Of a DNA stretch of 64,000 nucleotides, positions 31,114 through 45,142 are shown one piece after another; position 1 is the stretch's first letter, and every line of letters begins with the position of its first letter. The notes under the pieces were generated by a model, which saw nothing but the letters and a program-made list of their open reading frames with translations, had not been told where the DNA came from and searched no databases. Position numbers and translations under genes: made by a program. This stretch comes from Ottowia testudinis (GTDB taxonomy: Bacteria; Pseudomonadota; Gammaproteobacteria; Burkholderiales; Burkholderiaceae_C): positions 2,728,001 through 2,792,000 of the forward strand of contig NZ_CP071796.1 of NCBI RefSeq assembly GCF_017498525.1, in the 5' to 3' direction.

Positions 31114-32193
31114 AAAAACTGCTTGATTAGCCCCATATCGCAGGTACCCGCTCAGGTGTTCTGATGATGCGCATGGGCTGGGGTTTGGTTGTTGCGGCTG
31201 CGCGCAGCAATCGCATTGGCAATGCCGCCAAGTCATGGCGGCGATTGAATCGATAAGCAAACTCTGCCAGATAGCGCGCGCCATACTTGCTGTGCTTGAT
31301 ACCGTGATACGTCGCGGCCAAGGCCATCTTCACATTGCCCAGCATCGTGTTGACCCACTTGAAGGCGGGCAGTTGAGCGGCCTGACGACCACCGCCGGTG
31401 ACATGCCGCTCGTGGCTGGCGCCCACCTGGCTCACCCGCGCAAAGCAGGCCGTGCCATCAGAGATCACCTGCGCCCCAGCGGCCAGCGCCTTGCCCGCCC
31501 ATTGCTCGATAGCCTCGTTGGTAAAGCCGACTACCGGCGTCAAGCGCATGCGCTGCGGGCGCTGGCGCTCATCGGTCTGCACCGCCGCCACAAACGCCGT
31601 CTTGTTCAGCGCGCCGCGCCCGCCATGGGCGTGACCGGTGCGTTCACCGCCCAGATAGGCATCGTCAATCTCCACGCGCCCGCACAGCGGGCGCGATTCA
31701 TCGCGCATACGCATGACCTCCAGCACCTTGTGCTTAAGCAGCCAGGCAGCCTTGTAGCTCACGCCCAACTGGCGGCGCAGCGCCAGCGCACTGATGCCGT
31801 TCTTGCTCTGGCTGATCAGATACAGCGCCAGGAACCACTTGGGTAAAGGCAAACGGGTGTGCTCAAAGATGGTGCCCGCGGTGACGGAACATTGGTAGTC
31901 GCATGCGGCGCACTGCCACAGACGGCGCCCATGACCATCGCGGGTGCACCAGTGGTGCGCGCCCTCGTAGCGCGGGCAGCGCCAGCCCTGGGGCCAGCGC
32001 GTGACCACCAAGGCGTCCTCGCATTGCTGCTGGCTAGTGTACAAACGCATGAATTCGGGCAAGGACAGGCTGGCCTGAAACTGGATCGGGTTGATGGGCA
32101 TGATGGCCTCAAGCTGGATGCAATCACAGTTGATGGCTATGCACCGGTAAATCAAGGGCAAACCTGAAGTAGAGGGCTAATCAAGAAAAACTG
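31114..32193. mobile_element. complete IS1595-family insertion sequence with 8-bp target duplication
   Basis: The element spans 31122-32185 (1,064 bp). Both ends read inward as CTTGATTAGCCC (12 bp perfect) with further scattered identity (CAGGT at 20-24). It is flanked by perfect direct repeats AAAAACTG at 31114-31121 and 32186-32193, the 8-bp duplication expected for IS1595. The transposase stop codon (31127-31129) lies inside the left inverted repeat. The right flank continues straight into a palindromic repeat, so the element landed at that repeat's A-rich edge. Confidence 0.93.
31127..32101 (-). CDS. IS1595-family transposase
   Basis: 324 aa, apparently intact. The N-terminal zinc-ribbon (CPRYEGAHHWCTRDGHGRRLW with CAACDYQC) is followed by a helix-turn-helix region (ALALRRQLGVSYKAAWLLKH). 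The DDE-type catalytic domain shows VEIDDAYLGGERTGHAHGGRG, VISDGTACFARV, and FKWVNTMLGNVKMALAATYHGI with KYGARYLAEFAYRFNRRHD near the C-terminus, all family features. The ATG at 32101 (MPINPIQFQASL) matches usual IS1595 starts better than a longer frame reaching outside the element. Intact ends and duplication suggest a recent insertion. Confidence 0.92.
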   Translation of the reverse strand: MPINPIQFQASLSLPEFMRLYTSQQQCEDALVVTRWPQGWRCPRYEGAHHWCTRDGHGRRLWQCAACDYQCSVTAGTIFEHTRLPLPKWFLALYLISQSKNGISALALRRQLGVSYKAAWLLKHKVLEVMRMRDESRPLCGRVEIDDAYLGGERTGHAHGGRGALNKTAFVAAVQTDERQRPQRMRLTPVVGFTNEAIEQWAGKALAAGAQVISDGTACFARVSQVGASHERHVTGGGRQAAQLPAFKWVNTMLGNVKMALAATYHGIKHSKYGARYLAEFAYRFNRRHDLAALPMRLLRAAATTKPQPMRIIRTPERVPAIWG

Positions 32194-32991: not shown

Positions 32992-33233
32992 GATCTTCAA
33001 CTCCTTGTCTGCGGCCCGCCCCGAACAACCGAACGCGGCCATGGTGCAGATTAAACGAAGCAAAACCCTCTTGCGACCACATCGCTTGCGTGAAAACCGT
33101 ATCCAGGCGTAACGCGGCGCAGCAAAATCAAGGGTTTACGTGAGTGCAGGGACACATTTCAACCCAAGCGCACCCACTTGGGGCGGCTCGCATCAGCGCG
33201 TGACGTGGCGGGGCACCGACCTAGAATCGGGCC

Positions 33234-35123
33234 ATGTCTTCCCCCGCCAAAAACACCCCGGCCGCCGCGCCCGAAGCCCCCAGCCACTTCATCCGCCAGG
33301 CCATCGAACACGACCTTGATCAGGGCACTTACGCCAGCCGCCAGTGGGGCGGCCAGCCCGGCGACGGCCCCAGCCACGCCGCCGGCGAACCCGACCCGGC
33401 CAAGGTGCGCACCCGCTTTCCGCCCGAGCCCAACGGCTATCTGCACATCGGCCACGCCAAGAGCATCTGGCTGAACTTCAGCCTGGCCGAGGAGTACGGC
33501 GGCGTGTGCCACCTGCGCTTTGACGACACCAACCCCGAGAAAGAAGAGCAGGAATACGTCGACAGCATCCGCGAAACCGTGCGCTGGCTCGGCTGGGACC
33601 ACCACTTTGCCGACGACCCCGTGCGCCCCGGCATCCGCCAGCCGCACGAATACTTCGCCAGCGACTACTTCGACTTCATGTACCGCGCGGCCGAGTACCT
33701 GATCGAGGCCGGCCACGCCTACGTCGACGAGCAGACCGCTGAACAAATGCGCGCCAACCGCGGCGACTTTGGCACGCCAGGCGTCAACAGCCCCTTTCGC
33801 GACCGCTCGCCTGACGAAAATTTGAAGCGCTTTCGCGAAATGCGCGATGGCCAGCACCCCGACGGTGCCATGGTGCTGCGGGCAAAAATCGACATGGCCA
33901 GCCCCAACATCAACATGCGCGACCCGGCCATCTACCGCATCCGCCACGCCACGCACCACAACACGGGCGACAAGTGGTGCATCTACCCCATGTACACCTA
34001 CGCGCACCCCATCGAGGACGCGCTGGAGCAGATCACCCACAGCATCTGCACGCTGGAGTTTGAAGACCAGCGCCCGTTCTACGACTGGCTGCTGGAGCGG
34101 CTGAGCGAACCGCGCCTGCTGCCGGACGGACACGTCGTGGCCGGCCTTCTGAATGCGCCGCCGCCGCGCCAGTACGAATTTGGCCGCCTGAACGTGGGCC
34201 ACGTCATCACCAGCAAACGCAAGCTGCGCCAGTTGGTGGAAGAAGGCCACGTCACCGGCTGGGACGACCCGCGCATGCCCACCCTGGCCGGCCTACGCCG
34301 CCGCGGCTACACGCCCGAGGCGCTGCGCCTGTTTGCCGAGCGCTCAGGCGTCACCAAAAACGGGGATGCCTGGACCGACTACGCCGCGCTCGACGCCGCC
34401 CTGCGCGACACGCTCGACCCGCAAGCTGCGCGCGCCATGGCCGTGCTGGAGCCCATCAAGCTGGTGATTGAAAACTGGGCCGAGGTGTTTGGCAGCGACA
34501 GCCACCTAGAGCCGTGCGAAGCCCCCGTCCACCCGCACCACCCTGAAATGGGCCAACGCCAGTTCAACCTGGGGCGCGAGGTGTGGATTGAGCGCAGCGA
34601 CTACGAAGACACGCCGCCCAAGGGCTTCTTCCGCCTGTTCCCCCCCAGCGTTGACACCAGCGGCAACGCGGTGCCAGGAAGCAAGGTGCGGCTGAAATAC
34701 GGTTACGTCATCGAATGCACCGGCGCTATTAAAAATGAAGCAGGAAACATAGAGAAAATCTGGACGAAGTTGATAAAAGACACCAAATCTGGCACCGCAG
34801 GCGCTGACAGCGTCAAAGTCAAAGGCGTCATCACCTGGGTCAGCGCCGCCGACGGCCTGCCCGCCACTGTCAACCTTTACGACCGGCTGTTCATCGAAGA
34901 ACAGCCCGACGCCGGTGGAAGGGACTTTCTCACCGTGCTCAATCCCAACAGCCTGAACACCGTGCAGGCCGTCGTCGAGCCGTCACTCGCCAGCGCGCAG
35001 CCCGAGGATCGCTTTCAGTTCGAGCGGCACGGCTTCTTCGTGGCCGACCGGCGCGATCACCAAGCCGGCGGCAAGCTGGTGTTCAACCGCATCGCGGGCT
35101 TGAAGGATTCGTGGGGAAAGTAA
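33234..35123 (+). CDS. glnS: glutaminyl-tRNA synthetase
   Basis: 629 aa class I synthetase charging tRNA-Gln. The HIGH motif is PPEPNGYLHIGHAKSIWLNF, the KMSKS-like motif VITSKRKLRQL, and the tRNA-acceptor-binding region LRFDDTNPEKEEQEYVDSI is present. The anticodon-binding beta-barrels end QPEDRFQFERHGFFVADRR and LKDSWGK. A short A/T-rich patch (about 34721-34790; GAIKNEAGNIEKIW) differs in base use from the rest but stays in register. Most striking is that a diverged duplicate of its last 53 codons occurs downstream at 35975-36133. The zeta-like kinase gene starts within its final codons. Confidence 0.95.
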   Translation: MSSPAKNTPAAAPEAPSHFIRQAIEHDLDQGTYASRQWGGQPGDGPSHAAGEPDPAKVRTRFPPEPNGYLHIGHAKSIWLNFSLAEEYGGVCHLRFDDTNPEKEEQEYVDSIRETVRWLGWDHHFADDPVRPGIRQPHEYFASDYFDFMYRAAEYLIEAGHAYVDEQTAEQMRANRGDFGTPGVNSPFRDRSPDENLKRFREMRDGQHPDGAMVLRAKIDMASPNINMRDPAIYRIRHATHHNTGDKWCIYPMYTYAHPIEDALEQITHSICTLEFEDQRPFYDWLLERLSEPRLLPDGHVVAGLLNAPPPRQYEFGRLNVGHVITSKRKLRQLVEEGHVTGWDDPRMPTLAGLRRRGYTPEALRLFAERSGVTKNGDAWTDYAALDAALRDTLDPQAARAMAVLEPIKLVIENWAEVFGSDSHLEPCEAPVHPHHPEMGQRQFNLGREVWIERSDYEDTPPKGFFRLFPPSVDTSGNAVPGSKVRLKYGYVIECTGAIKNEAGNIEKIWTKLIKDTKSGTAGADSVKVKGVITWVSAADGLPATVNLYDRLFIEEQPDAGGRDFLTVLNPNSLNTVQAVVEPSLASAQPEDRFQFERHGFFVADRRDHQAGGKLVFNRIAGLKDSWGK

Positions 35124-35725
35124 GCTCAACCGATATCGATGACGCACCGCGCGTCGTCATCTTTGCCGGCCCCAATGGCGCTGGCAAATCCACCCATGCC
35201 GATGCCATTCTCCAAGCCATGGGCATCGCCACCTTCGTCAACGCCGACTACATCGCCCGTGGCCTGGCCGGCGCCCATACCGAAACAGTGAACATCACTG
35301 CCGGCCGAATCATGTTGCGGCGGCTTCACGAACTTGCCGCTGCGCGAGAAGACTTTGCCTTCGAATCCACCCTCGCCAGCCGCAGCTTCGCGCCCTTTTT
35401 GCGCAGTCTGAAGGCGGTCGGCTACCGCGTCGCCATTTACTACTTCTCACTCGCCAACACCCAGTTGGCGGTCCGCCGCGTCAAATTGCGCGTCAAACTG
35501 GGAGGCCATGACGTGCCAGCCGACATCGTCCGCCGCCGGTTCGCCCGCAGCCGCGCCAACTTTTTTGCACTTTATGCGCCGCTGGCCGATGATTGGGCCG
35601 TGTTCGACAACTCACACGCGGGCAACGCCCGCCTGATCGCCGAATGCCACCAACAGCAAATGCAAATCAAGGATGCATCGACATGGATCCGAATCAACCC
35701 CGAGTCCGCAGCACCGAAAGCCTGA
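35111..35725 (+). CDS. zeta-toxin-like P-loop kinase
   Basis: 204 aa from a GTG at 35111, overlapping the end of glnS by 13 bases; GAAGGA lies just upstream but is tightly spaced. Walker A is VVIFAGPNGAGKST (residues 15-28). FVNADYIARGLAG and ITAGRIMLRRLHELAAAREDFAFESTLAS (in two parts) match zeta-toxin/AAA-like proteins, which phosphorylate UDP-N-acetylglucosamine or related substrates; VRRRFARSRANFFALYAPLADDW is the usual C-terminal region. No epsilon-type antitoxin is recognised upstream; a small gene overlaps its 3' end. It lies between glnS and a displaced glnS 3' fragment, indicating arrival by recombination. It could be a non-toxic housekeeping kinase of the same family. Confidence 0.82.
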   Translation: MGKVSSTDIDDAPRVVIFAGPNGAGKSTHADAILQAMGIATFVNADYIARGLAGAHTETVNITAGRIMLRRLHELAAAREDFAFESTLASRSFAPFLRSLKAVGYRVAIYYFSLANTQLAVRRVKLRVKLGGHDVPADIVRRRFARSRANFFALYAPLADDWAVFDNSHAGNARLIAECHQQQMQIKDASTWIRINPESAAPKA

Positions 35726-35868
35726 TCCTGCGGCCCAGACAACTCAGGGCCGCACTGCGCAAATCCGCCGATCGCGCGCAGCGACTGGCCGACGCATTCG
35801 GGCAGCCAGTGCCCACAGTGGCGGCCGCTCCACGCAAAACCACGTCCAAAGTGCCCACGAAACGCTGA
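35683..35868 (+). CDS. small basic protein overlapping the zeta-like gene; possible partner
   Basis: 61 aa. The ATG at 35683 has AAGGA nine bases upstream and overlaps the zeta-like gene by 43 bases in another frame. The centre looks helical and charged (STESLILRPRQLRAALRKSAD and RAQRLADAFGQ); the tail is Lys/Thr-rich. No family recognised. The overlap and order suggest co-translation, so an antitoxin or accessory role is a reasonable but unproven guess. Confidence 0.55.
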   Translation: MDPNQPRVRSTESLILRPRQLRAALRKSADRAQRLADAFGQPVPTVAAAPRKTTSKVPTKR

Positions 35869-35912
35869 TACGGGTAACGCGATTTGCTCCTTCGCTTCAA
35901 CCTCCACCACTC

Positions 35913-35973
35913 GGGGAAATTCGAATCTGACCCCAATTTCCCCCCAATTTCCCCAATTTCCACCCCAATTTCC
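35913..35973. repeat. CCCCAATTT repeat block at the left border of the SIR2 module
   Basis: GGGGAAATTCGAATCTGACC continuing CCAATTTCC (35913-35940) is the inverted counterpart of a sequence at 38863-38896. It merges into further tandem units, so CCCCAATTT occurs at 35931, 35942, 35951 and 35963. It ends directly at the glnS 3' remnant. Confidence 0.75.
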
Positions 35974-35974
35974 G

Positions 35975-36133
35975 CAGGCCATCGTCGAACCCGGCCTGGC
36001 CAAAGAAGCTCCCGAAGACCGCTTCCAGTTCGAACGCCACGGCTTCTTCGTTGCGGATCGGAGCGAGCATGTGGCGGGCGAGAAACTGGCGTTCAACCGG
36101 GTGACGGGTTTGAAGGATTCGTGGGCGAATTAA
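35975..36133 (+). pseudogene. displaced glnS 3'-end remnant (53 codons)
   Basis: The frame reads QAIVEPGLAKEAPEDRFQFE then RHGFFVADRSEHVAGEKLAF and NRVTGLKDSWAN-stop, which aligns without gaps to the end of the intact GlnRS (QAVVEPSLASAQPEDRFQFE, LKDSWGK) with clear but partial identity (about seven in ten residues by eye). It has no start and begins abruptly after the CCCCAATTT block. Both copies share TTGAAGGATTCGTGGG (35100-35115 and 36110-36125). It marks where the original glnS ended before a related 3' end plus cargo was inserted or recombined in. Confidence 0.88.
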
Positions 36134-36167
36134 AGACGACTGTTCCAAGCCGCCTAACCCGCGGACG

Positions 36168-36180
36168 TGTCTCATAGACA
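36168..36180. promoter_or_regulatory. inverted repeat upstream of the SIR2 gene
   Basis: TGTCT-CAT-AGACA, a 5-bp perfect inverted repeat 25 bases before the SIR2 start codon. It could be a regulator site or a 5' UTR hairpin. Confidence 0.35.
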
Positions 36181-36204
36181 GATAACCAACTACACAGCGC
36201 CGCC

Positions 36205-38790
36205 ATGAAACTCGCAGAGCTAAAGAGCCAGTTAAAAGCAAAAGAACGCAGCATAAAAGACCTACTCCGATTCATCGAAACAAGGTCGGACCAGAATCCT
36301 AACCACACACTACTACTTGGCGCCGGCTGCTCTGTTACTTCCGGCGTCCGGTCAGCTAGCGCGCTCTGCAATCTGTGGCGCAGAGAAATAATTGAAGAAC
36401 TGGCGCCCACTCTCATCACATCGGGCTTAGACGAGCAACAGGACTGGCTAAAAAAGAACCAGAACGACTGGTACGATGCCCAAAAAGAGTATTCCACACT
36501 ATTCGAAAGAAAATACGACCTTCAAAGACAGCGTCGAATGTTCGTTGAAAACGAAGTTAAGGACGCTTTCCCATCAATCGGTTACACGTATTTAACCGCA
36601 CTAATCGATCAAAACTACTTTAATACGGTATTCACAACAAATTTCGACGATTTAGTCAACGAATCTTTTTTCTTGTACAGCAACGAACGCCCGATAGTCT
36701 GCGCCCACGACTCCTCCATAAACTCCGTAACGATTACCTCTAAACGCCCCAAAATCATCAAACTACACGGCGACTACTTATTCGACGACATCAAGGCCAC
36801 AGAACGCGAAACAGAGTCTCTCGATCAAAATATGAAAGAGAAATTCGTCGAATTTGCCAAAGATTATGGGCTTATCGTTATTGGTTATTCTGGCGGCGAT
36901 AGATCTATAATGGATATTATATCATTGCTCCTAAAAAATGATGAGTATTTCAAGAACGGTCTATATTGGTGCATCAGGAAAGACTCAGACGTTCCAGAGG
37001 AACTGCGACGCCTTCTATGGCGAGAGCGCGTCTATTTCGTAGAAATAGGTGGGTTTGATGAGTTGATGGCCGAGATGTACGCACATCTATCCAAAGGTGA
37101 GCTAATACCACCATCGACCACGCATGGCAGAAATAGATATGACTCCGTGATCAAAAGACTGCTGGACAATCCGACCGCATTCCCCACAACTTCCGAAAAC
37201 TTGAGAGCAGCGAAAGAAATTTTCATTCGACAATCGAAACGCAAAGCAATTGCAAATCTAATCATCAATCCAGACAGCAAAGATAAGCCGCTACCGCAAT
37301 CCGATTTCACTGATGACGATCTACTTCTTCTAACAAACCTCGAAAAATTGTTTAGAGAAAAGAAGTACGAAGAACTAATTGCAGAATCACGAATTCACCT
37401 TCACAATATTGCAGACTCTAGCGTCGGGGATCGTATTGCGAGTATGCTAATTAACGCATATATTGCGCTTCGCCAAGATCATGAAGCTAAGAGGGTAGCC
37501 GATCATATGGACTCGATTTCCCCTTGCAGCAGTAAATGGCTCTTAAAGAAGGCGAGATTGATAAATGCACCCAAAGATAAACTTGAGATACTCGAACTAG
37601 CTCTTTCACGTGATATATATTCTTCCGAAGCCCTAAGAGCACTCGGTCGTTGGCACTCCGATCAGTGCGGCATTACGATGGGAGAAGCGAGAAAGCAAGC
37701 TTACGAAAGCGCATATGACTATTTCAAGAAGTCAATTGTTGCGGCACCCTCAAAAAGCAACCTAGCATGGTCACTTCAACATGAATTGGTAAGGCAACAT
37801 GAGAAAAACAAACCCAGAAAAAATGATCGCTTAAATGAAATCGAAACAACTTTGGCTCACCAAGGCGCCTTAGATTGGGGTCTTCTTAACCTAAAGGTGG
37901 AGCGACTTGATAAGGATCAAAATAAAATCGCATTTAACCAGCTAGTTGAACAGATCGGTCAGGGCAAGACACGAGCGCCAAAGAGCCTAAAAATTCACTT
38001 CGACCGACTTTTGCTTCGTGCGCACATAAATTATGAACAGTACGATGACGCAAAACTTATTTTAGATGAGTTACACTCATCTCAAGAGCATGTTTCTGAT
38101 TCCGGGCTAGCTTACGATATCGCAAAGGCAATGAGAAAGAACTTTGCGATGGATGATCTCGCCGCTTCTGTCCTGAAGGATAATTTGGCAGCGGATGACT
38201 TCGACGCGACAGTATTCTCGTATTTGTTTAGAACACTCTTAGATATCAGCTATTATGATGAGGCAAAACAACTCCTCGATAGATTCGCAGAGAACGTGTT
38301 GGACACGCACGAATGGAGGCTGCGGCACGAATACCATGAGCGAATCGGTGATTTTGCGAGCGCTCTGGACGCATTAGAAAAACGGGAACACCTCGGATCT
38401 CCGACAGACTATTCTGCCAAATCATACCTACTCCTGCGTCAAAAGAAATTCAATGAAGCAAGGGAATTCTGTCAACAATATTTGACTAGCATATCGTATA
38501 CACCCGAAGCAACAACAATTATAGTAAATCTGGAGGTAGCACGAAAGCATCTAAAATCAAAACCAGATAATGGCCGCCTAGATGCCGTGATTGCTTACGA
38601 GCCAACAGATGTGAACAAAGCAGTTGTAGCGGCACTTAAAGATCACAAAAAGGAAGCGCTTTCACATATAGAAAATCAACTCAAGAAAGACAAGACCTTC
38701 CGATTTGATATTTCTCGCTGGCCAGTATTCGAAGAAATCTCTAAAGAGCCGGAATATCAGAGAATTGCGGCTGCATTTAAGCATAACTAA
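36205..38790 (+). CDS. SIR2-domain protein with C-terminal helical repeats, putative antiphage NADase
   Basis: 861 aa. The N-terminal SIR2-like domain (about residues 30-290) keeps the NAD-site motifs: LLLGAGCSVTSGVRS (GAG at 39-41), FTTNFDDLV (144-148), catalytic-type His188 in IIKLHGD, and VIGYSGGDRSIMD (227-232). The remaining 550 residues look like TPR-type helical repeats (LEKLFREKKYEELIAESRI, YDDAKLILDELHSS, YDEAKQLLDRFAENV) without a P-loop. SIR2 effectors joined to sensor regions deplete NAD in several antiphage systems (for example DSR, Avs5), so abortive defence is the likely role. The gene is clearly richer in A/T and uses different codons from its neighbours, a sign of transfer. 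No partner gene is adjacent; the start has no obvious RBS. Confidence 0.8.
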   Translation: MKLAELKSQLKAKERSIKDLLRFIETRSDQNPNHTLLLGAGCSVTSGVRSASALCNLWRREIIEELAPTLITSGLDEQQDWLKKNQNDWYDAQKEYSTLFERKYDLQRQRRMFVENEVKDAFPSIGYTYLTALIDQNYFNTVFTTNFDDLVNESFFLYSNERPIVCAHDSSINSVTITSKRPKIIKLHGDYLFDDIKATERETESLDQNMKEKFVEFAKDYGLIVIGYSGGDRSIMDIISLLLKNDEYFKNGLYWCIRKDSDVPEELRRLLWRERVYFVEIGGFDELMAEMYAHLSKGELIPPSTTHGRNRYDSVIKRLLDNPTAFPTTSENLRAAKEIFIRQSKRKAIANLIINPDSKDKPLPQSDFTDDDLLLLTNLEKLFREKKYEELIAESRIHLHNIADSSVGDRIASMLINAYIALRQDHEAKRVADHMDSISPCSSKWLLKKARLINAPKDKLEILELALSRDIYSSEALRALGRWHSDQCGITMGEARKQAYESAYDYFKKSIVAAPSKSNLAWSLQHELVRQHEKNKPRKNDRLNEIETTLAHQGALDWGLLNLKVERLDKDQNKIAFNQLVEQIGQGKTRAPKSLKIHFDRLLLRAHINYEQYDDAKLILDELHSSQEHVSDSGLAYDIAKAMRKNFAMDDLAASVLKDNLAADDFDATVFSYLFRTLLDISYYDEAKQLLDRFAENVLDTHEWRLRHEYHERIGDFASALDALEKREHLGSPTDYSAKSYLLLRQKKFNEAREFCQQYLTSISYTPEATTIIVNLEVARKHLKSKPDNGRLDAVIAYEPTDVNKAVVAALKDHKKEALSHIENQLKKDKTFRFDISRWPVFEEISKEPEYQRIAAAFKHN

Positions 38791-38862
38791 ATATCGCACT
38801 CCAATACGGCAGGTCGATTTCTAGCAGGCGCTCACCTCGGCGCCCCCAGCCCCAAAGACGCA

Positions 38863-38896
38863 GGGGGAAATTGGGGTCAGGGCAAGATTTCCCGGG
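38863..38896. repeat. right-border inverted copy of the SIR2-module repeat
   Basis: GGGGGAAATTGGGGTCAGGG then CAAGATTTCCCGGG. In opposite orientation to 35913-35945, the two enclose the glnS remnant and the SIR2 gene. Confidence 0.7.
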
Positions 38897-38962
38897 AAAG
38901 ACTCCCCATGCCCCACGACATGCGCTGATGAAGGCATCTCTCCGTTTTCGATAGATACGGAT

Positions 38963-38987
38963 AAATTGGGGTCAGATCAAAATATCC
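38963..38987. repeat. third copy of the AAATTGGGGTCAG repeat
   Basis: AAATTGGGGTCAGATCAAAA continuing TATCC, direct orientation relative to 38863-38896, 13 bases before the Mrr-like start codon. Confidence 0.65.
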
Positions 38988-38999
38988 AGCACCTGAATC

Positions 39000-39917
39000 A
39001 TGGCACGTCGTAAACCCAAACACACCTTCTTGTCGGCAGGCGCCAGTCTGATGGGTATTGGGTTGATGTTTCTGCTACTTCCCGCAATGCTCGGCACGCG
39101 TCCGGTGATGGTCGCCATCGGTCAAGGGCTGTGGATGCCAGGTTGGTTCGCGTTGGGTGCCGGGGCGGTGCTGCTGGCATTGCATTGGCTGGTGCGTCAG
39201 CGCAGCGCAGCTGCAGCGAAGTTGCCTCAGATCGAACGCAGACACGCCGCGCACCGCGTTTCGCAGACCCTGAGTCAGGTCGAACCCACGCTGGAACCCG
39301 CGACACGCGAGGCCCGCTCGCCCGCCCCTGCCCTGGCTCACGAGCGCCTGACCCACTGGAACCCCGAAGTCTTCGCCGCCATCGAATGGCGCCGGTTCGA
39401 GGCGGTGGTGGAAGCGCTGTTTGCCCAGGCCGGCTTCGAGACGCGGGCGCAGACGCACGGGGCAGATGGCGGGGTGGATGTGTGGCTGCATTCTCGCCAC
39501 GCGGGCGGCGCGCCGGTGGGCGTGGTGCAGTGCAAGCATTGGCAGGGCAAGCCGGTGCCGGTGTCGGCCATGCGCGAGTTCTTCGGGGTGATGGCGTCGC
39601 ACGGGCTCAAGCGCGGCACCTACGCCACCACGTCGCGCTTTACGCCCGAAGCGCTGGCCTTTGCCAATGCCAACGGCATCAACGCGCAAGATGGCGATGG
39701 CTTGCTCAAGCTGATCGCCACACGCACGCCCGAGCAGCAGAGCGCGCTGCTGGCGATGGCCTTCGACGGCGAATACTGGCGCCCCACCTGCGCCAGCTGC
39801 GGCATGAAGATGGCCGAGCGCACCGCCCGTAGCAACGGCAAGCGCTTCTGGGGCTGCGTGAACTTTCCGCACTGCAAGGCCACGTTGCCGATGCCGGCTG
39901 CCACCGGCGCCGCATGA
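39000..39917 (+). CDS. membrane-anchored Mrr-like restriction endonuclease with zinc finger
   Basis: 305 aa. Two N-terminal hydrophobic helices (LMGIGLMFLLLPAMLG; WFALGAGAVLLALHWLV) are followed by a linker and an Mrr_cat PD-(D/E)xK nuclease fold (about residues 118-235): WRRFEAVVEALFAQAGFETR, ADGGVDVWLHS (Asp156/Asp160), VVQCKHWQGKPV (Gln177-x-Lys179) and GTYATTSRFTPEALAFAN. A C-terminal topoisomerase-type zinc finger has CASCGMKM and GCVNFPHCKATL. Mrr proteins cut modified or foreign DNA; the membrane anchor suggests action on entering DNA. High G+C, unlike the SIR2 gene. The ATG at 39000 lacks an RBS. Confidence 0.82.
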   Translation: MARRKPKHTFLSAGASLMGIGLMFLLLPAMLGTRPVMVAIGQGLWMPGWFALGAGAVLLALHWLVRQRSAAAAKLPQIERRHAAHRVSQTLSQVEPTLEPATREARSPAPALAHERLTHWNPEVFAAIEWRRFEAVVEALFAQAGFETRAQTHGADGGVDVWLHSRHAGGAPVGVVQCKHWQGKPVPVSAMREFFGVMASHGLKRGTYATTSRFTPEALAFANANGINAQDGDGLLKLIATRTPEQQSALLAMAFDGEYWRPTCASCGMKMAERTARSNGKRFWGCVNFPHCKATLPMPAATGAA

Positions 39918-39929
39918 GTTCTTGATCAG

Positions 39930-39982
39930 TATATTTTTTATAGCTGGTCGCGCTTGCCCATCAAGCGCTGGAGCCGGTTTTG
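39930..39982. repeat. Comamonadaceae-type palindromic repeat, copy 10
   Basis: TTTTTTATAGCTGGTCGCGC, TTGCCCATCAAGCGCTGGAG, CCGGTTTTGG. It is downstream of the Mrr-like gene. The rest of 39983-40068 shows no gene. Confidence 0.78.
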
Positions 39983-40068
39983 GCTCCTAACCGCAAGACA
40001 ACGGCGGGTCAAGTGAAAGCACCCTATTGAATCAAGCCCCATGAGATCAACCAATCACCCATCACCAA

Positions 40069-40107
40069 CCCCAATTTGGGTCTAATCAAACCCAATTTGG
40101 GTATAAA
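40069..40107 (+). promoter_or_regulatory. tandem CCCAATTTGGGT operators and promoter of the HTH-nucleotidyltransferase gene
   Basis: CCCAATTTGGGT occurs at 40070-40081 and 40091-40102, centres 21 bp apart (two helical turns), so dimers would bind the same DNA face. The second copy abuts TATAAA (40102-40107), a likely -10. The start codon at 40117 is only nine bases past it, suggesting a leaderless or nearly leaderless mRNA. The encoded HTH protein is the obvious candidate repressor. Confidence 0.6.
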
Positions 40108-40116
40108 CTAGACGCC

Positions 40117-40710
40117 ATGACTCTCATCGGCGATGCCCTCTTCCCCGCCACGCGGCAGCGCGTGCTGGCGGTGCTGTTCGGGTCGCCGGATCGCAGCTTC
40201 TACGCCAACGAGCTCATCGGGCTGGCGCGTTCGGGCACGGGGGCGGTCCAGCGAGAGTTGGCCAGTCTGCTGGGCGCCGGGTTGGTGACGGTGCGCGAGC
40301 AGGGCAACCAGAAGCACTATCAGGCCAACGCCGCCTCGCCCGTGTTTGTTGAGTTGCGCGGGCTGGTGCTCAAGACGGTGGGGCTGGCTGACGTGCTGCG
40401 CGGGGCGCTGGCGCCGCTGGCGGAGCAGATCGCAGCGGCGTTCGTCTATGGATCGGTGGCGCGCCACGCCGACACGGCCGCCAGCGACGTAGACGTGCTG
40501 GTGGTGAGTGACTCGCTGGGCTATGCCGAACTGTTCGGTGCACTGGAAGGCGCGGCGCAGACGCTGGGCCGCGCCATCAACCCCACGCTCTACACCCGCG
40601 CCGAGCTGGCGCGGCGCCGCGCCCAAGACAACGCCTTCGTCACCCGCGTGCTGACGCAGCCGCGCATCTGGCTGCTGGGCGATGAAGGGGTTCTGGCAAA
40701 TGGCGACTGA
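40117..40710 (+). CDS. HTH-domain nucleotidyltransferase (MNT-type antitoxin-like)
   Basis: 197 aa. The N-terminal winged helix (about residues 8-80) reads RQRVLAVLFGSPDRSFYANE, ARSGTGAVQRELASLLGAGL and KHYQANAASPVFVELR. The C-terminal minimal nucleotidyltransferase motif is AAFVYGSVARHADTAASDVD then VLVV (GS followed by DxD). MNT proteins paired with HEPN genes form type VII toxin-antitoxin modules in which the MNT AMPylates the HEPN toxin. Here the fused DNA-binding domain would add autoregulation through the tandem operators. Overlaps the next gene by 11 bases. No Shine-Dalgarno, in line with a leaderless transcript. Confidence 0.8.
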   Translation: MTLIGDALFPATRQRVLAVLFGSPDRSFYANELIGLARSGTGAVQRELASLLGAGLVTVREQGNQKHYQANAASPVFVELRGLVLKTVGLADVLRGALAPLAEQIAAAFVYGSVARHADTAASDVDVLVVSDSLGYAELFGALEGAAQTLGRAINPTLYTRAELARRRAQDNAFVTRVLTQPRIWLLGDEGVLANGD

Positions 40711-41119
40711 CCCGCTGCTCAACCTGAGCGGCCCGGGCAAGCCGTTGAAGGCCGAGCCGCCCGACGCGGCCGAGACCGCCGGCCTGCTGCGCACCGGCCG
40801 CGCGCGCCTGATGGATGCCGGCAACGCCGCGCTATCGCTCGAAAGCCGGTTCGACCTGGCCTACAACGCGGCACACGCCCTGTGCCTGGCCGCGCTGCGG
40901 CGCCGGGGCTTGCGGCCCAGCCAGCGCTACATCGTCTTTCAGGTGTTGCCGCACACGCTGGGGCTGGGGCCGGAGGTGTGGCGGGTGCTGGACAAGTGCC
41001 ACAACATCCGCAACCTGGGCGAATACGAGGGGCTTCTGGACATTGACGAGCGCCTGGTCAGCGGCTTGATTGACGCGGCGCGGCGCGTGGACGAGGCGTT
41101 GCGCGCGGTGGGCGCATGA
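40700..41119 (+). CDS. HEPN-like partner protein of the HTH-nucleotidyltransferase
   Basis: 139 aa, mostly helical: SRFDLAYNAAHALCLAALRR, RYIVFQVLPHTLGLGPEVW, KCHNIRNLGEYEGLLD. Order and overlap with the MNT gene match MNT-HEPN modules. However the HEPN ribonuclease motif R-N-x4-H is seen only as RNLGEYEG, with no histidine in the expected place, so RNase activity is doubtful; it may be a catalytically inactive variant or a related family. The ATG at 40700 has GAAGGGG about nine bases upstream. Confidence 0.65.
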   Translation: MATDPLLNLSGPGKPLKAEPPDAAETAGLLRTGRARLMDAGNAALSLESRFDLAYNAAHALCLAALRRRGLRPSQRYIVFQVLPHTLGLGPEVWRVLDKCHNIRNLGEYEGLLDIDERLVSGLIDAARRVDEALRAVGA

Positions 41120-41212: not shown

Positions 41213-41262
41213 GATTTCAATAGCTGCTTGCGCAAGCTGCACAAGCGCCACAGGCCTATTTA
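41213..41262. repeat. Comamonadaceae-type palindromic repeat, copy 11
   Basis: ATTTCAATAGCTGCTTGCGC, AAGCTGCACAAGCGCCACAG, GCCTATTTA. It is between the convergent HEPN-like gene and fic, touching the fic stop codon (41260-41262). Confidence 0.75.
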
Positions 41263-42426
41263 TGCCTGAACGCCAGTCTGCTCCGCCGACCCCACATCAT
41301 CCGCCAACCCATACCGCGTGCCCCTGCCTTGCCCCGTGCGGTTGAGCAAACCCAGCTCGGTCAGATGCGTCAGCTCGCGGTACGCCGTGGCACGCGAGAC
41401 GCCGGTGAGGTTGACGTATTTCTCGGTGCTCAGGCCGCCCGCAAAACCCTCCGGCCCGGCGTCGAACAGGCGGCCCAGGGCTTTGCGCTGGCTGGCGCTC
41501 AAGGCGGGGTAGTCGGCCTGGATGCGGGCCCAGAAGCGCGTCTTGGCCAGCGCCGCCTGGATGTGGGTGGTGGCGGCTTCGCACGCCCCCTGCACGCGGG
41601 CAGCGAACCACTGCACCCACGGCGTCACATCCACATCAGGGCGGCCGGTGGCGGCCTGCAGGTGCGCGTAGTAGTCGGCGCGGGCGTGCAGCAGCTGGGT
41701 AGATACGCTCATCAGCCGCTGCGGGCTTTGCATGTCCTGCGCCAGGGCCAGCTCGACGATGGCGCGGCCGATGCGGCCGTTGCCGTCTTCGAACGGGTGC
41801 ACGGCCTCGAACCACAGGTGCGCCAGCGCGGCGCGCGCCAGCCCGTCGATCTGGCCCCGGCTGGCGTTGAACCATTGCAGCCACTCGGCCATGTGCGCGG
41901 GCACGTCGGCGGACGCAGGGGCTTGGTAGTGCACCACGTCGGGCTTGCCGAAGCGTGGGGTCACGATCTGCATCGGCTCAGGATGCGTTCGCCAGCCGCC
42001 GGTGACGATGGGCTGCATACCGCTGCGCCCGGTGGGGAACAGAGCAGCGTGCCAGCCGAACAGGTCGTCGGCCGTGATCGCGTGCTGCCACTGGCCCACG
42101 GCGGCCTGCAGCACGTCGAGTGTGGCCTCGGTGCGTGGGTCGCGCGTGCCAGCGCTGGCGCCGGGCAGGCCAAGCCGCCGCGCGGCTGAGGCGCGCACGC
42201 TGTTCACCTGCAAAACTTCGCCCTCGATCTGCGCCGTGGCGATGGCCTCTTGCGTCCACTCGGTGAGTTGCAGTTCAGCCAGGTCCACCAGTTGCAGGCT
42301 GCTGGCCAGCCCCAGCAAGCGCCCCTGCGCCAGCCGGGCAGCCGAGAAGGCCGGCTGCAGCGCCTGGGGGTTGAAGTGCAGCGCGGGCCAGTCAGGCGCC
42401 TGCCAGATCCATCGGGTTGTGGTCAT
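41260..42426 (-). CDS. Fic-domain protein (class II, with winged-helix C-terminus)
   Basis: 388 aa. The Fic AMP-transferase motif is AVHPFEDGNGRIGRAIVELA with catalytic His210. The auto-inhibitory motif T/SxxxEG is seen as TAQIEG (residues 64-69) in the N-terminal helix, so it is a class II enzyme held off in cis. The flap region VTGGWRTHPEPMQIV and the C-terminal winged helix (NLTGVSRATAYRELTHLTEL, GLLNRTGQGRGTRYG) are typical of DUF4172-type Fic proteins. Target unknown; AMPylation of host proteins, possibly self-limiting. Upstream lies a dense array of inverted repeats, suggesting that the winged helix regulates its own promoter. Confidence 0.9.
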   Translation of the reverse strand: MTTTRWIWQAPDWPALHFNPQALQPAFSAARLAQGRLLGLASSLQLVDLAELQLTEWTQEAIATAQIEGEVLQVNSVRASAARRLGLPGASAGTRDPRTEATLDVLQAAVGQWQHAITADDLFGWHAALFPTGRSGMQPIVTGGWRTHPEPMQIVTPRFGKPDVVHYQAPASADVPAHMAEWLQWFNASRGQIDGLARAALAHLWFEAVHPFEDGNGRIGRAIVELALAQDMQSPQRLMSVSTQLLHARADYYAHLQAATGRPDVDVTPWVQWFAARVQGACEAATTHIQAALAKTRFWARIQADYPALSASQRKALGRLFDAGPEGFAGGLSTEKYVNLTGVSRATAYRELTHLTELGLLNRTGQGRGTRYGLADDVGSAEQTGVQA

Positions 42427-42493: not shown

Positions 42494-42640
42494 TCAGGTT
42501 TCTTCCTCCGTCATTCGGGCTTTCGCCGGAATGACGGCAAGCAGCAATGCCAGCCCGTAGCACGCTGCCCTCCGCTCGCCCGTGCGCGAGAGCAGCCCAC
42601 GCTCGGTCAGTTGCGTGAGCTCGCGGTGGGTCCTGTACGC
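42494..42640 (-). pseudogene. 3' remnant of a second fic-like gene
   Basis: On the minus strand the frame reads HRELTQLTERGLLSRTGERR then AACYGLALL, closely matching the winged-helix end of the intact Fic (YRELTHLTELGLLNRTGQGR). It then runs into a CATTCCGGCGAAAGCCCGAA-type repeat and stops near 42494. Nothing upstream of it resembles the rest of Fic, so it is a truncated duplicate. The remaining 42640-42778 is leader for the next gene. Confidence 0.7.
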
Positions 42641-42778
42641 CTGCCTCTTGAAACGGAGCAGCCCTTCAGGCCGCCGAAGAAATCAGAGTGCGCCGACGAT
42701 GGATGCCCCGCAGAACGGCCTTACGATTCCGCCCAGCGTCGTGAAACACTTCGAGCCCGCTTCGACCCCGGAGAACCC

Positions 42779-45142
42779 ATGAAGTCATTCGTCCAGCAGT
42801 GGATACGCCCACTTTTCTTCCTGTGCGTATGTTGTCTGGCCGGCGCTGCGGCGGCGCAAAGCCTGACGCTGGATCGCAAAGACGACCGCACGCTGTCGCC
42901 CTACTTCTTTGTGCAAAGCGACGACCCGTCCGTCGAGCAACTGCCCCTGCAATCGACCCAGGTCGATGCGCGCATCGCCGGCACGATCGCCGACGTCACT
43001 GTCACGCAGACCTACGCCAACCGGGGCCAGTCGCCGATCGAGGCGCTGTATGTGTTTCCGGCCTCCACGCGCGCCGCCGTGCACGGCATGAAGATGACGA
43101 TTGGCGAGCGCGTGGTCGAAGCCAGGATTGAAAAGCGCGAAGACGCCCGGCAGCAGTACGAGCAGGCGCGCAAGGAAGGCCGCAGCGCCTCGCTGCTGGA
43201 GCAGCAGCGGCCCAACGTGTTCCAGATGAACCTGGCCAACATCATGCCGGGCGATGTGGTGAAGGTGGAGCTGCGCTACACCGAGCTGATCGTGCCCGAA
43301 GACGGTGTATATGCCTTCGTCTACCCCACGGTGGTGGGCCCGCGCTATTCCAACCAACCCCTGAGCCAGGGCACGGCCAACGACCAGTGGGTGGCCAACC
43401 CCACGCTGCGCCAGGGCGAGGCCCCCACGTCCACGCTCGAAATCCAAGTCGATCTGGCCGCCGGCTTGCCGGTGCGCGATGTGGCGTGCAGCACGCACAA
43501 GACCAGCGTGGCGTTTGACGGCCCCACGGCCGCGCGCATCACGCTGGCGCCCGAAGAGGCGCACGGCGGCAACCGCGACTTTGTGCTGCGCTACCGGCTG
43601 GCGGGCCAGGCGATTCAACAGGGGCTGCTGCTGTACCAGGGCCAGGACGCAAACTACTTCCTGCTGACGGCGCAGCCGCCGAAGCAGGTCACGCCGGCGG
43701 TGATTCCGGGGCGCGAATACGTGTTCATCGTCGATATCTCGGGCTCGATGCACGGCTTTCCGCTGGATGTGTCGAAAGAGCTGTTGCGCAACCTGATCGG
43801 CGGCCTGCGGCCGACGGATCGCTTCAACGTGCTGCTGTTCTCAGGCAGCAGCGCCGCGCTTGCTGAGGAATCGCTGCCGGCCACGCCCGAGAACCTGCGC
43901 CGCGCCATCGATGTGATCGACCGCAAGCAAGGCGGCGGCAGCACCGAGCTGCTGCCGGCCTTCAAACACGCGCTGGCCTTGAAGACGCGCAAGGACTTTG
44001 CCCGCACGGTGGTGATCGTCACCGACGGCTACGTCACCGTCGAAGAAGAAGTGTTCGACCTGATCCGCCAGAACCTGGACCGCACCAACGTGTTCCCCTT
44101 TGGCATCGGCAGTTCCGTCAACCGCCATTTAATGGAAGGCATGGCACGCGTGGGCATGGGCGAGCCGTTTGTGGTGGCCAAGCCCGAGCAGGCGCGCGCC
44201 GAGGCGGAGCGCTTTCGCAAAATGATCGCCTCCCCGGTGCTGACCGGCGTAAAGGTGATGTTTGACGGCTTTGACGCCTACGACGTCGAGCCCGCCAAGG
44301 TACCCGACGTGCTGGCCGAGCGCCCGCTGGTGGTGTTTGGCAAGTGGCGCGGCACGCCGCAGGGCCGCATCCACATCAAGGGTGTGTCAGGCCACGGGCC
44401 GTATCACGACGTGGTGGACGTGGCCCGCCATGCCCCATCGCCCAGCGCAACCGCCCTGCCCTACCTGTGGGCGCGGCACCGCATCGCGCTGCTGTCGGAC
44501 TACAACGGCATCAAGAAAGACGACAAGCGCGTGGACGAGGTCACGCGCCTGGGCCTGCAGCACCACCTGCTCACCGCCTACACCTCGTTTGTGGCGGTCG
44601 ATTCGGCGGTGCGCAACACGGCCGGCGTGGCCGACAAGGTGCAGCAGCCTTTGCTGCTGCCGCAGGGCGTGTCGAACCTGGCGGTGGGCGGTGCGTCGCG
44701 CGTGTACAGCAGCGCGGTGGCCGCTGCGGCGCCGGCCGCAGCCGCGCCGGTGGCCACTTCGAAATTGACCTATTCCGCCGACGCCTTCTTTGCCCCACGC
44801 CAGGCCGTCCTGGATGCGGACGGCAAACGCAAGCTGGATGACCTGATTGCGAAGGTGAAGAACGTGAACCTGGAAGTCATCATCGTCGTCGGCCACGCCG
44901 ATCCGCACGAGCCGGCCGCCATGGCGCAAAAACTGTCGGAAGACCGCGCCACGGCGGTGCGCGATTACCTGGTCAGCCAAGGCATTCCGGCCGCGCGCAT
45001 TCACACCGAAGGCAAAGGTGCCAAGCAGCCCGTGGCCGGTTGCCCGCCCAGCACGCCGCCGGCGCAAAAGCCCGCCTGCCTGCGCGACAGCGGCGCCAAA
45101 AACCGCCGGGCTGAACTGGAAGTGGTTGGGACCAGGCCGTGA
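42779..45142 (+). CDS. VIT-VWA protein with C-terminal OmpA-like domain
   Basis: 787 aa. Signal sequence (FFLCVCCLAGAAAA before QSL); VIT domain (about residues 30-160: STQVDARIAGTIADVTVTQT, ALYVFPASTRAAVHGMKMTI); von Willebrand A domain (about 310-480) with MIDAS FIVDISGSMHGFP and VVIVTDGYVTVEEE; then a linker rich in Ala/Pro and an OmpA-like peptidoglycan-binding domain (YSADAFFAPRQAVLDADGKR, VVGHADPHEPAAMAQKLSED, GIPAARIHTEGKG, NRRAELEVVG). It probably acts in the periplasm or at the outer membrane as a metal-dependent adhesion or scaffolding protein anchored to peptidoglycan. The ATG at 42779 has GGAG six bases upstream. Confidence 0.85.
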   Translation: MKSFVQQWIRPLFFLCVCCLAGAAAAQSLTLDRKDDRTLSPYFFVQSDDPSVEQLPLQSTQVDARIAGTIADVTVTQTYANRGQSPIEALYVFPASTRAAVHGMKMTIGERVVEARIEKREDARQQYEQARKEGRSASLLEQQRPNVFQMNLANIMPGDVVKVELRYTELIVPEDGVYAFVYPTVVGPRYSNQPLSQGTANDQWVANPTLRQGEAPTSTLEIQVDLAAGLPVRDVACSTHKTSVAFDGPTAARITLAPEEAHGGNRDFVLRYRLAGQAIQQGLLLYQGQDANYFLLTAQPPKQVTPAVIPGREYVFIVDISGSMHGFPLDVSKELLRNLIGGLRPTDRFNVLLFSGSSAALAEESLPATPENLRRAIDVIDRKQGGGSTELLPAFKHALALKTRKDFARTVVIVTDGYVTVEEEVFDLIRQNLDRTNVFPFGIGSSVNRHLMEGMARVGMGEPFVVAKPEQARAEAERFRKMIASPVLTGVKVMFDGFDAYDVEPAKVPDVLAERPLVVFGKWRGTPQGRIHIKGVSGHGPYHDVVDVARHAPSPSATALPYLWARHRIALLSDYNGIKKDDKRVDEVTRLGLQHHLLTAYTSFVAVDSAVRNTAGVADKVQQPLLLPQGVSNLAVGGASRVYSSAVAAAAPAAAAPVATSKLTYSADAFFAPRQAVLDADGKRKLDDLIAKVKNVNLEVIIVVGHADPHEPAAMAQKLSEDRATAVRDYLVSQGIPAARIHTEGKGAKQPVAGCPPSTPPAQKPACLRDSGAKNRRAELEVVGTRP

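Follow-up and report, generated by a model that had tools for sequence, protein, structure and literature searches.

Truncated second glnS 3' ends behind a zeta-type gene pair point to recurrent recombination at glnS in Ottowia and neighbouring genera

The 3' end of glnS, the glutaminyl-tRNA synthetase gene, was analysed in a 64,000-nucleotide stretch of the Ottowia testudinis genome (contig NZ_CP071796.1, positions 2,728,001 to 2,792,000; the whole stretch is called the window and its genome G000) and in related genomes. Behind the intact gene, the window carries a zeta-type kinase gene with a small partner open reading frame (ORF), followed by a second, 5'-truncated glnS 3' end (the remnant) and a defence-type gene. 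This architecture recurs in other genomes; the two ends differ in ancestry in the window and in G015, the 5' cuts and the cargo vary, and no tyrosine integrase lies close by in the available sequence. The explanation we favour, with a rough probability of 0.57, is recurrent integrase-free recombination between glnS alleles with differing downstream cargo, in which a toxin-antitoxin-type pair is retained beside glnS. The features concerned are, in window positions (aa, amino acids):

33234-35123, + strand: glnS, glutaminyl-tRNA synthetase, 629 aa, intact, the anchor gene of the hotspot (Pfam tRNA-synt_1c, tRNA-synt_1c_C and tRNA-synt_1c_C2)
34965-35123, + strand: current 3' end of glnS, 52 codons plus stop, compatible with the host's relatives
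35111-35725, + strand: zeta-type kinase, 204 aa, GTG start in the last glnS codons, 13 nt overlap with glnS (Pfam Zeta_toxin)
35683-35868, + strand: small partner ORF, 61 aa, overlapping the end of the kinase ORF; a presumed antitoxin, judged by its position
35975-36133, + strand: remnant, a 5'-truncated second glnS 3' end from codon 577 to the stop, with no in-frame stop before it and with ancestry unlike that of the current end

A search of the whole genome returned 33234-35123 as the sole full-length glnS match and the remnant as a further glnS match (E = 6.6e-20). The current end and the remnant align over 159 bp without a gap, with 118 of 159 positions identical (74%), and the likeness stops upstream of this stretch. 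Counting the stop, 39 of 53 codons specify the same amino acid, and TTGAAGGATTCGTGGG is common to both ends. Mismatches at codon positions 1, 2 and 3 number 7, 8 and 26, which indicates that both copies evolved as coding DNA, and the remnant retains its stop codon. The extreme 16 bp are identical in the two copies and encode a tail present in most glnS genes. The initial annotation had described a gap-free, diverged copy of the last 53 codons of glnS at 35975-36133; the alignment confirms the copy and its length of 159 bp, with the correction that 53 includes the stop. Of the direct-repeat families in 33000-40500, the one formed by the two ends is the largest. A search of 56 mechanically chosen ORFs of the window against the window itself found a gene-end copy for glnS alone. 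The remaining matches were two ORF pairs that are 37-38% alike along part of the sequence; one pair lies at the OmpA domain of 42611-45142. An IS1595-type transposase gene lies upstream of glnS (31127-32161, - strand).

The GTG at 35111 agrees with the earlier description of glnS as ending at 35123 with a zeta-like kinase starting inside it. The kinase ORF matched Pfam Zeta_toxin at 47.0 bits (cut-off 22.3, E = 2.7e-12), and GPNGAGKST, which we take to be the Walker A motif, was invariant in 12 of 12 aligned homologues. The best fold matches of its structure model (predicted local distance difference test score, pLDDT, 87) were AvrRxo1-ORF1 (4z8q, E = 4.5e-09), epsilon/zeta (1gvn, 2.3e-07) and PezT (2p5t, 6.6e-07), and other small-molecule kinases were matched as well. 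By its Zeta_toxin domain and predicted Zeta/PezT fold, the kinase is a probable member of the zeta toxin family. The dN/dS of the zeta gene, 0.06-0.30 in nine of ten pairs (the tenth was not computable), indicates purifying selection. The 61-aa partner ORF had no match in Pfam or PADLOC. A homologue of it follows the kinase in most, not all, regions, and G030/G308 and G200/G410 have other small ORFs there. The zeta gene and the 61-aa ORF are presumed to form a toxin-antitoxin-type pair; no promoter-like match was found in 35000-36300.

The distribution of its homologues indicates that this zeta clade is tied to glnS. All eight Ottowia homologues at at least 64% identity sit behind glnS (the G001 gene is a two-piece match). 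Across the family, 17 of 399 genomes carry a homologue at at least 54% identity, which lies within ~4.3 kb behind glnS in 14; it is 265 kb from glnS in G285, and the remaining two genomes are split between contigs. Remoter homologues with examined loci are not beside glnS, except in G398, where a zeta gene of 41% identity lies 1.5 kb behind it and no remnant is present. Plasmid and phage vectors for zeta were considered and rejected: all 492 plasmid matches were below 60% identity (the best among the matches listed was 45.7%), and the four phage matches reached at most 33%. A search of IMG/VR, which reaches close relatives only, found no zeta relatives.

Comparison of 55 glnS regions from the genus Ottowia and its family revealed 5'-truncated glnS ends in 10 regions, comprising 11 remnants in five genera (G000, G007, G011, G015, G019, G022 with two, G030, G122, G169 and G308). 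All 11 were oriented as glnS (+). A zeta gene lay within 0.9 kb behind glnS in 15 regions and the partner ORF alone in one further, G015. Remnants were present in 9 of the 16 regions with zeta or partner within 1 kb versus 1 of the 39 others (Fisher's test, p = 1.6e-5). The regions were partly picked for carrying zeta, so these frequencies are not population estimates; G007 supplies two regions, and the 39 include G014 (weak partner-ORF match, below threshold) and Rhodoferax L107 (with an ORF related to the small one of G030/G308, 0.45 kb downstream of glnS). No remnant was found where zeta of at least 55% identity lay 2.4-4.2 kb behind glnS (G268, G263, G283, G094 and Rhodoferax L107). Little DNA was available behind glnS in G016 (272 bp), G335 (335 bp), G410 (929 bp) and G001, G017, G021 and G169 (less than 1.8 kb), and a missing remnant there means little. 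G398, with its glnS only partly matched, was omitted from the 3'-end work.

The remnants start at points varying from about codon 492 to 605. Cargo behind glnS was variable among the 36 regions compared by ORF clusters, with defence-type genes behind glnS or the remnant in several. Some genomes have other genes directly after glnS and no remnant, such as a PD-T4-2-like gene in G023 and an ATPase in G008. The proposal that the glnS 3' end is a recombination hotspot with variable cargo is supported by the compared regions. The initial annotation had named two findings that would speak against it, relatives bearing both ends without cargo and ends equally distant from all relatives; neither was seen, as something sits between the ends in 10 of 10 regions with a second end, and the distances differ.

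Zeta and the small partner precede eight of the 11 remnants, the partner alone precedes that of G015, a HigB-type gene and its neighbour one in G022, and DUF2283 genes that of G169. Two extra small ORFs lie between partner and remnant in G122, and the weak remnant of G308 overlaps the end of a small ORF. G022 has two layers: glnS is followed by a HigB-type toxin gene with a helix-turn-helix (HTH)-type neighbour (HTH_3, below cut-off), a short glnS end attached to zeta, the zeta gene and partner, and another glnS end. In G169 the remnant comes after small genes, two DUF2283 genes among them, and before an HTH gene. Five remnants are followed by a defence-type gene: SIR2 in G000, AAA_15 in G007, DNA methylase in G011, GmrSD in G030 and, on the other strand, GmrSD_N in G019. 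The other six are followed by a zeta pair (first of G022), small DUF2283-like or HTH genes (G308, G169), genes with few or weak matches (G015, G122) or the contig end (second of G022). The association of remnants with toxin-antitoxin-type modules suggests that addiction may block clean swaps. An argument from an AAA gene pair, present behind glnS in G268 and also following the G007 remnant, was set aside as weak, since the genes are only 36% and 22% identical. Separately, the glnS genes of G030, G042, G044 and G066 gave two-piece matches (around residues 292 and 311), the pieces lying in a single long open frame of 690-718 aa, which suggests an in-frame insert.

Nine of the 11 remnants were tested in trees; the first of G022 (reversed by the aligner) and that of G308 were not used, and rows with too few filled columns were omitted from single trees. 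The earlier idea that the two glnS ends have separate ancestries was supported by these phylogenies: holding the two ends together in the 3'-end tree was rejected in the window (approximately unbiased (AU) test, p = 0.0005) and in G015 (p = 1e-4). These rejections tell against a local tandem duplication in which the glnS end was copied along with the zeta pair and the copy then decayed. Such an event would account for four remnants being sister to their own gene's end on longer branches (0.21-0.64, versus 0.01-0.06 for the gene) and would leave the differing cargo behind each remnant unexplained. We regard it as highly improbable.

The direction of exchange is clear in G015. Its current end falls far outside Ottowia (AU p = 1.6e-22 for placement with G019 and G011), and its remnant groups with G019 (96/95), so that here the initial scheme, a foreign end placed on glnS and the old end displaced, holds. 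G007 (L155) contains a second, diverged glnS (G007:C33:36151-37917) whose 3' end is closest to the foreign end of G015; its contig is possibly a contaminant. The G011 remnant resembles other genera over only 99 bp.

For the window, gyrB and rpoB placed G000 nearest G010, G023, G018 and G008 (96/99; G010 and G008 by gyrB only). For the current end, a grouping with G010, G023 and G008 was not rejected (AU p = 0.34), and over codons ~490-629 G000 groups with G023 and G010 at 99/96. The remnant, nearest G016/G022 in the tree, fitted G010, G023 and G008 poorly (AU p = 0.044; 0.009 with G000 added). Since the gyrB and rpoB relatives fit the current end and the remnant fits them poorly, the remnant is, with moderate strength, more likely to be the incomer than the current end. 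Of the displacement claimed earlier for the window, recombination and two ancestries stand, and a foreign end on glnS has become doubtful. That version, in which a foreign unit of glnS 3' end plus zeta pair displaced the native end that is now the remnant, appears unlikely to us, although glnS taken alone speaks for it. The body looks G016-like and the current end G025-like, the sites G000 shares with G016 versus G025 numbering 76:58 in the body, 2:27 in the last codons and 22:6 in the remnant; the current end is also compatible with the zeta carriers G011, G025 and G021, and G015 shows the same direction clearly. It conflicts with the placement of G000 by gyrB and rpoB away from G016, with the grouping of codons ~490-629 and with the poor fit of the remnant to those relatives.

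Three further signs were examined. Faster divergence of the glnS 3' end was rejected as a sign of import, being the same in genomes without zeta. Switching between the best body partner and the best 3' partner was rejected as a specific sign; it occurs without zeta and is strongest in G010 (p = 8e-9). Divergence gave no support either way for zeta travelling together with a 3' end.

We also considered insertion at the glnS 3' end by a site-specific integrase, with each inserted element supplying a version of that end. The direct repeat of the gene end around cargo and the 16 bp identity at the extreme end are what such insertion would leave, as at e14 in icd. However, the identical end encodes the tail usual in most glnS genes, and no tyrosine integrase (PF00589; serine recombinases were not searched) was found within 68 kb of glnS in G000 or 236 kb in G011, the two one-contig genomes in the search, or on the glnS contigs of eight drafts (4.8-473 kb, three of them only 5-11 kb). 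Nor was there a fixed attachment core at both ends: the remnant starts range over ~codons 492-605, and the DNA between the partner stop and the remnant (or the next 150 bp; stretches of 30-149 bp) gave no pairwise match at E <= 0.01 among nine genomes. By eye, a REP-like (repetitive extragenic palindromic) motif at the junction is common to G000 and G011, and a different repeat motif to G015 and G019. The sequences do not indicate insertion of the integrase type, which we consider improbable at this site. The varying remnant edges, unmatched junction DNA and lack of a nearby tyrosine integrase point instead to integrase-free recombination between glnS alleles.

Recombination between glnS alleles could then proceed as follows. 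The glnS 3' end would serve as a docking point in Ottowia and neighbouring genera, whose lineages bear distinct cargo straight behind the gene. DNA of one lineage, bringing no integrase, would recombine with that of another through conserved glnS or through downstream genes common to both. If a toxin-antitoxin-type pair is present on glnS, or arrives there, addition would become possible instead of a clean swap, leaving the pair by glnS, followed by a truncated second glnS 3' end and the cargo of the other lineage. In the window, native glnS with its zeta pair would have been the recipient, and a truncated glnS 3' end with at least the SIR2 gene behind it the incoming foreign block; we infer this direction. 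The remnant's left edge probably arose by illegitimate joining, the DNA may have come in by natural transformation or a similar route, and toxin addiction may be why the pair is retained.

Several results weigh against this explanation. A clear defence-type gene follows only 5 of the 11 remnants, and two remnants are weak matches (G308, E = 1.5e-4; first of G022, 5e-4). The clades for the AU tests were picked after seeing the data. Joining the window's current end with the zeta carriers G011, G025 and G021 was not rejected (AU p = 0.18), and its remnant with G010 alone gave p = 0.092. Placement of the G015 remnant with G019 and G011 was rejected (p = 0.009), and the own-clade AU p of G011 shifted with the rows used (0.028 versus 0.113). 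The remnants of G019, G007, G122 and G030 are sisters of their own gene's end (bootstrap 97-100), which is also expected from in-place duplication or from exchange among close kin, and the tree placement of the second G022 remnant and that of G169 favours neither origin. As switching occurs without zeta and 3' divergence is faster everywhere, mosaicism of the 3' end does not single out these loci. ComEC was present in all 10 genomes searched and likewise in 10 of 14 controls, and was rejected as proof of competence.

A bolder version of the retained-pair idea, which we hold only tentatively and think rather doubtful, is a ratchet: with the start codon of the pair lying within an essential gene, recombinants that lose the pair in a swap would die, and exchange could only add cargo behind it. 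Were this true, defence islands would be built up one layer at a time, with a spare glnS end bounding each layer, and the spare ends would provide a homologous arm for spreading the cassette to a naive glnS without a recombinase.

The DNA around and behind the window's remnant contains the following:

35914-35974, + strand: junction, a REP-like repeat and CCCCAATTTCC runs, then the sharp start of the remnant
36205-38790, + strand: SIR2-domain defence-type gene, beginning 72 bp behind the remnant (Pfam SIR2_2; PADLOC SIR2-pAgo-associated models, residues ~30-300)
39000-39917, + strand: Mrr-type restriction endonuclease gene (Pfam Mrr_cat)
40117-41119, + strand: nucleotidyltransferase-type gene and partner (PADLOC PDC-M05A/B), termed MNT/HEPN, HEPN being our presumed name for the partner; common to G023, G008 and G283
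41260-42426, - strand: Fic-domain gene, SoFic-like (Pfam Fic; PADLOC SoFic); common to G023, G008 and G011

The GC content of the SIR2 gene is ~40-47% versus ~60-72% in its surroundings, and no homologue at E <= 1e-40 was found in the other 398 of the 399 family genomes. The MNT/HEPN and Fic layer of the window is also present in G023 and G008, so that the block from zeta to Mrr lies in a variable slot. A 25-bp REP-like element at 35915-35939 (+) and 38963-38987 (-) flanks the remnant and SIR2 block in inverted orientation. At up to 3 mismatches the genome contains seven copies of it (against 0 for the backwards control), with two close inverted pairs elsewhere.

To our knowledge, the build-up of defence genes in islands without evident integrases or transposons is poorly understood. 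At glnS the scars consist of conserved core-gene sequence and can be ordered and traced to donors. Their link with a toxin-antitoxin-type pair starting inside glnS suggests a testable explanation for the growth of islands at some core genes and the mere exchange of content at others. In the open-licence literature, no report was found of a zeta toxin together with glutaminyl-tRNA synthetase, nor of glnS together with hotspot, integration and defense; related topics gave no matching report by title or abstract start among the matches listed.

Known systems share parts of this organization. Insertion of e14 and phage 21 in icd of E. coli is integrase-driven and uses a fixed site, with a diverged housekeeping-gene 3' end flanking foreign DNA. 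The glnS locus has the same kind of flank; unlike e14, it has no tyrosine integrase close by, and its remnant edges vary. As in core-gene-flanked defence hotspots, variable defence genes lie beside a fixed core gene; in contrast to these, the scars at glnS are the core gene itself, and the toxin-antitoxin-type pair begins inside it. Displaced-end arrays of Rhs, contact-dependent inhibition (CDI) and type VI secretion system (T6SS) loci have displaced anchor 3' ends in direct orientation, as seen here in 11 of 11 remnants (+) and in the two layers of G022; their anchor encodes a toxin, whereas here it is glnS. By analogy with such arrays the cargo behind remnants would be the older, which is doubtful in the window. 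In the T6SS orphan immunity arrays of Vibrio cholerae, a conserved anchor is followed by displaced 3' ends and older genes, lined up by repeated additions (Kirchberger et al. 2017, PMC5361080). The authors propose a process akin to homology-facilitated illegitimate recombination, with no integrase evidence. The glnS hotspot resembles these arrays in its row of displaced 3' ends and its integrase-free model. It differs in that the effector itself is displaced there and an essential tRNA synthetase here, and in that the glnS cargo consists of toxin-antitoxin-type and defence-type genes with reading frames of their own.

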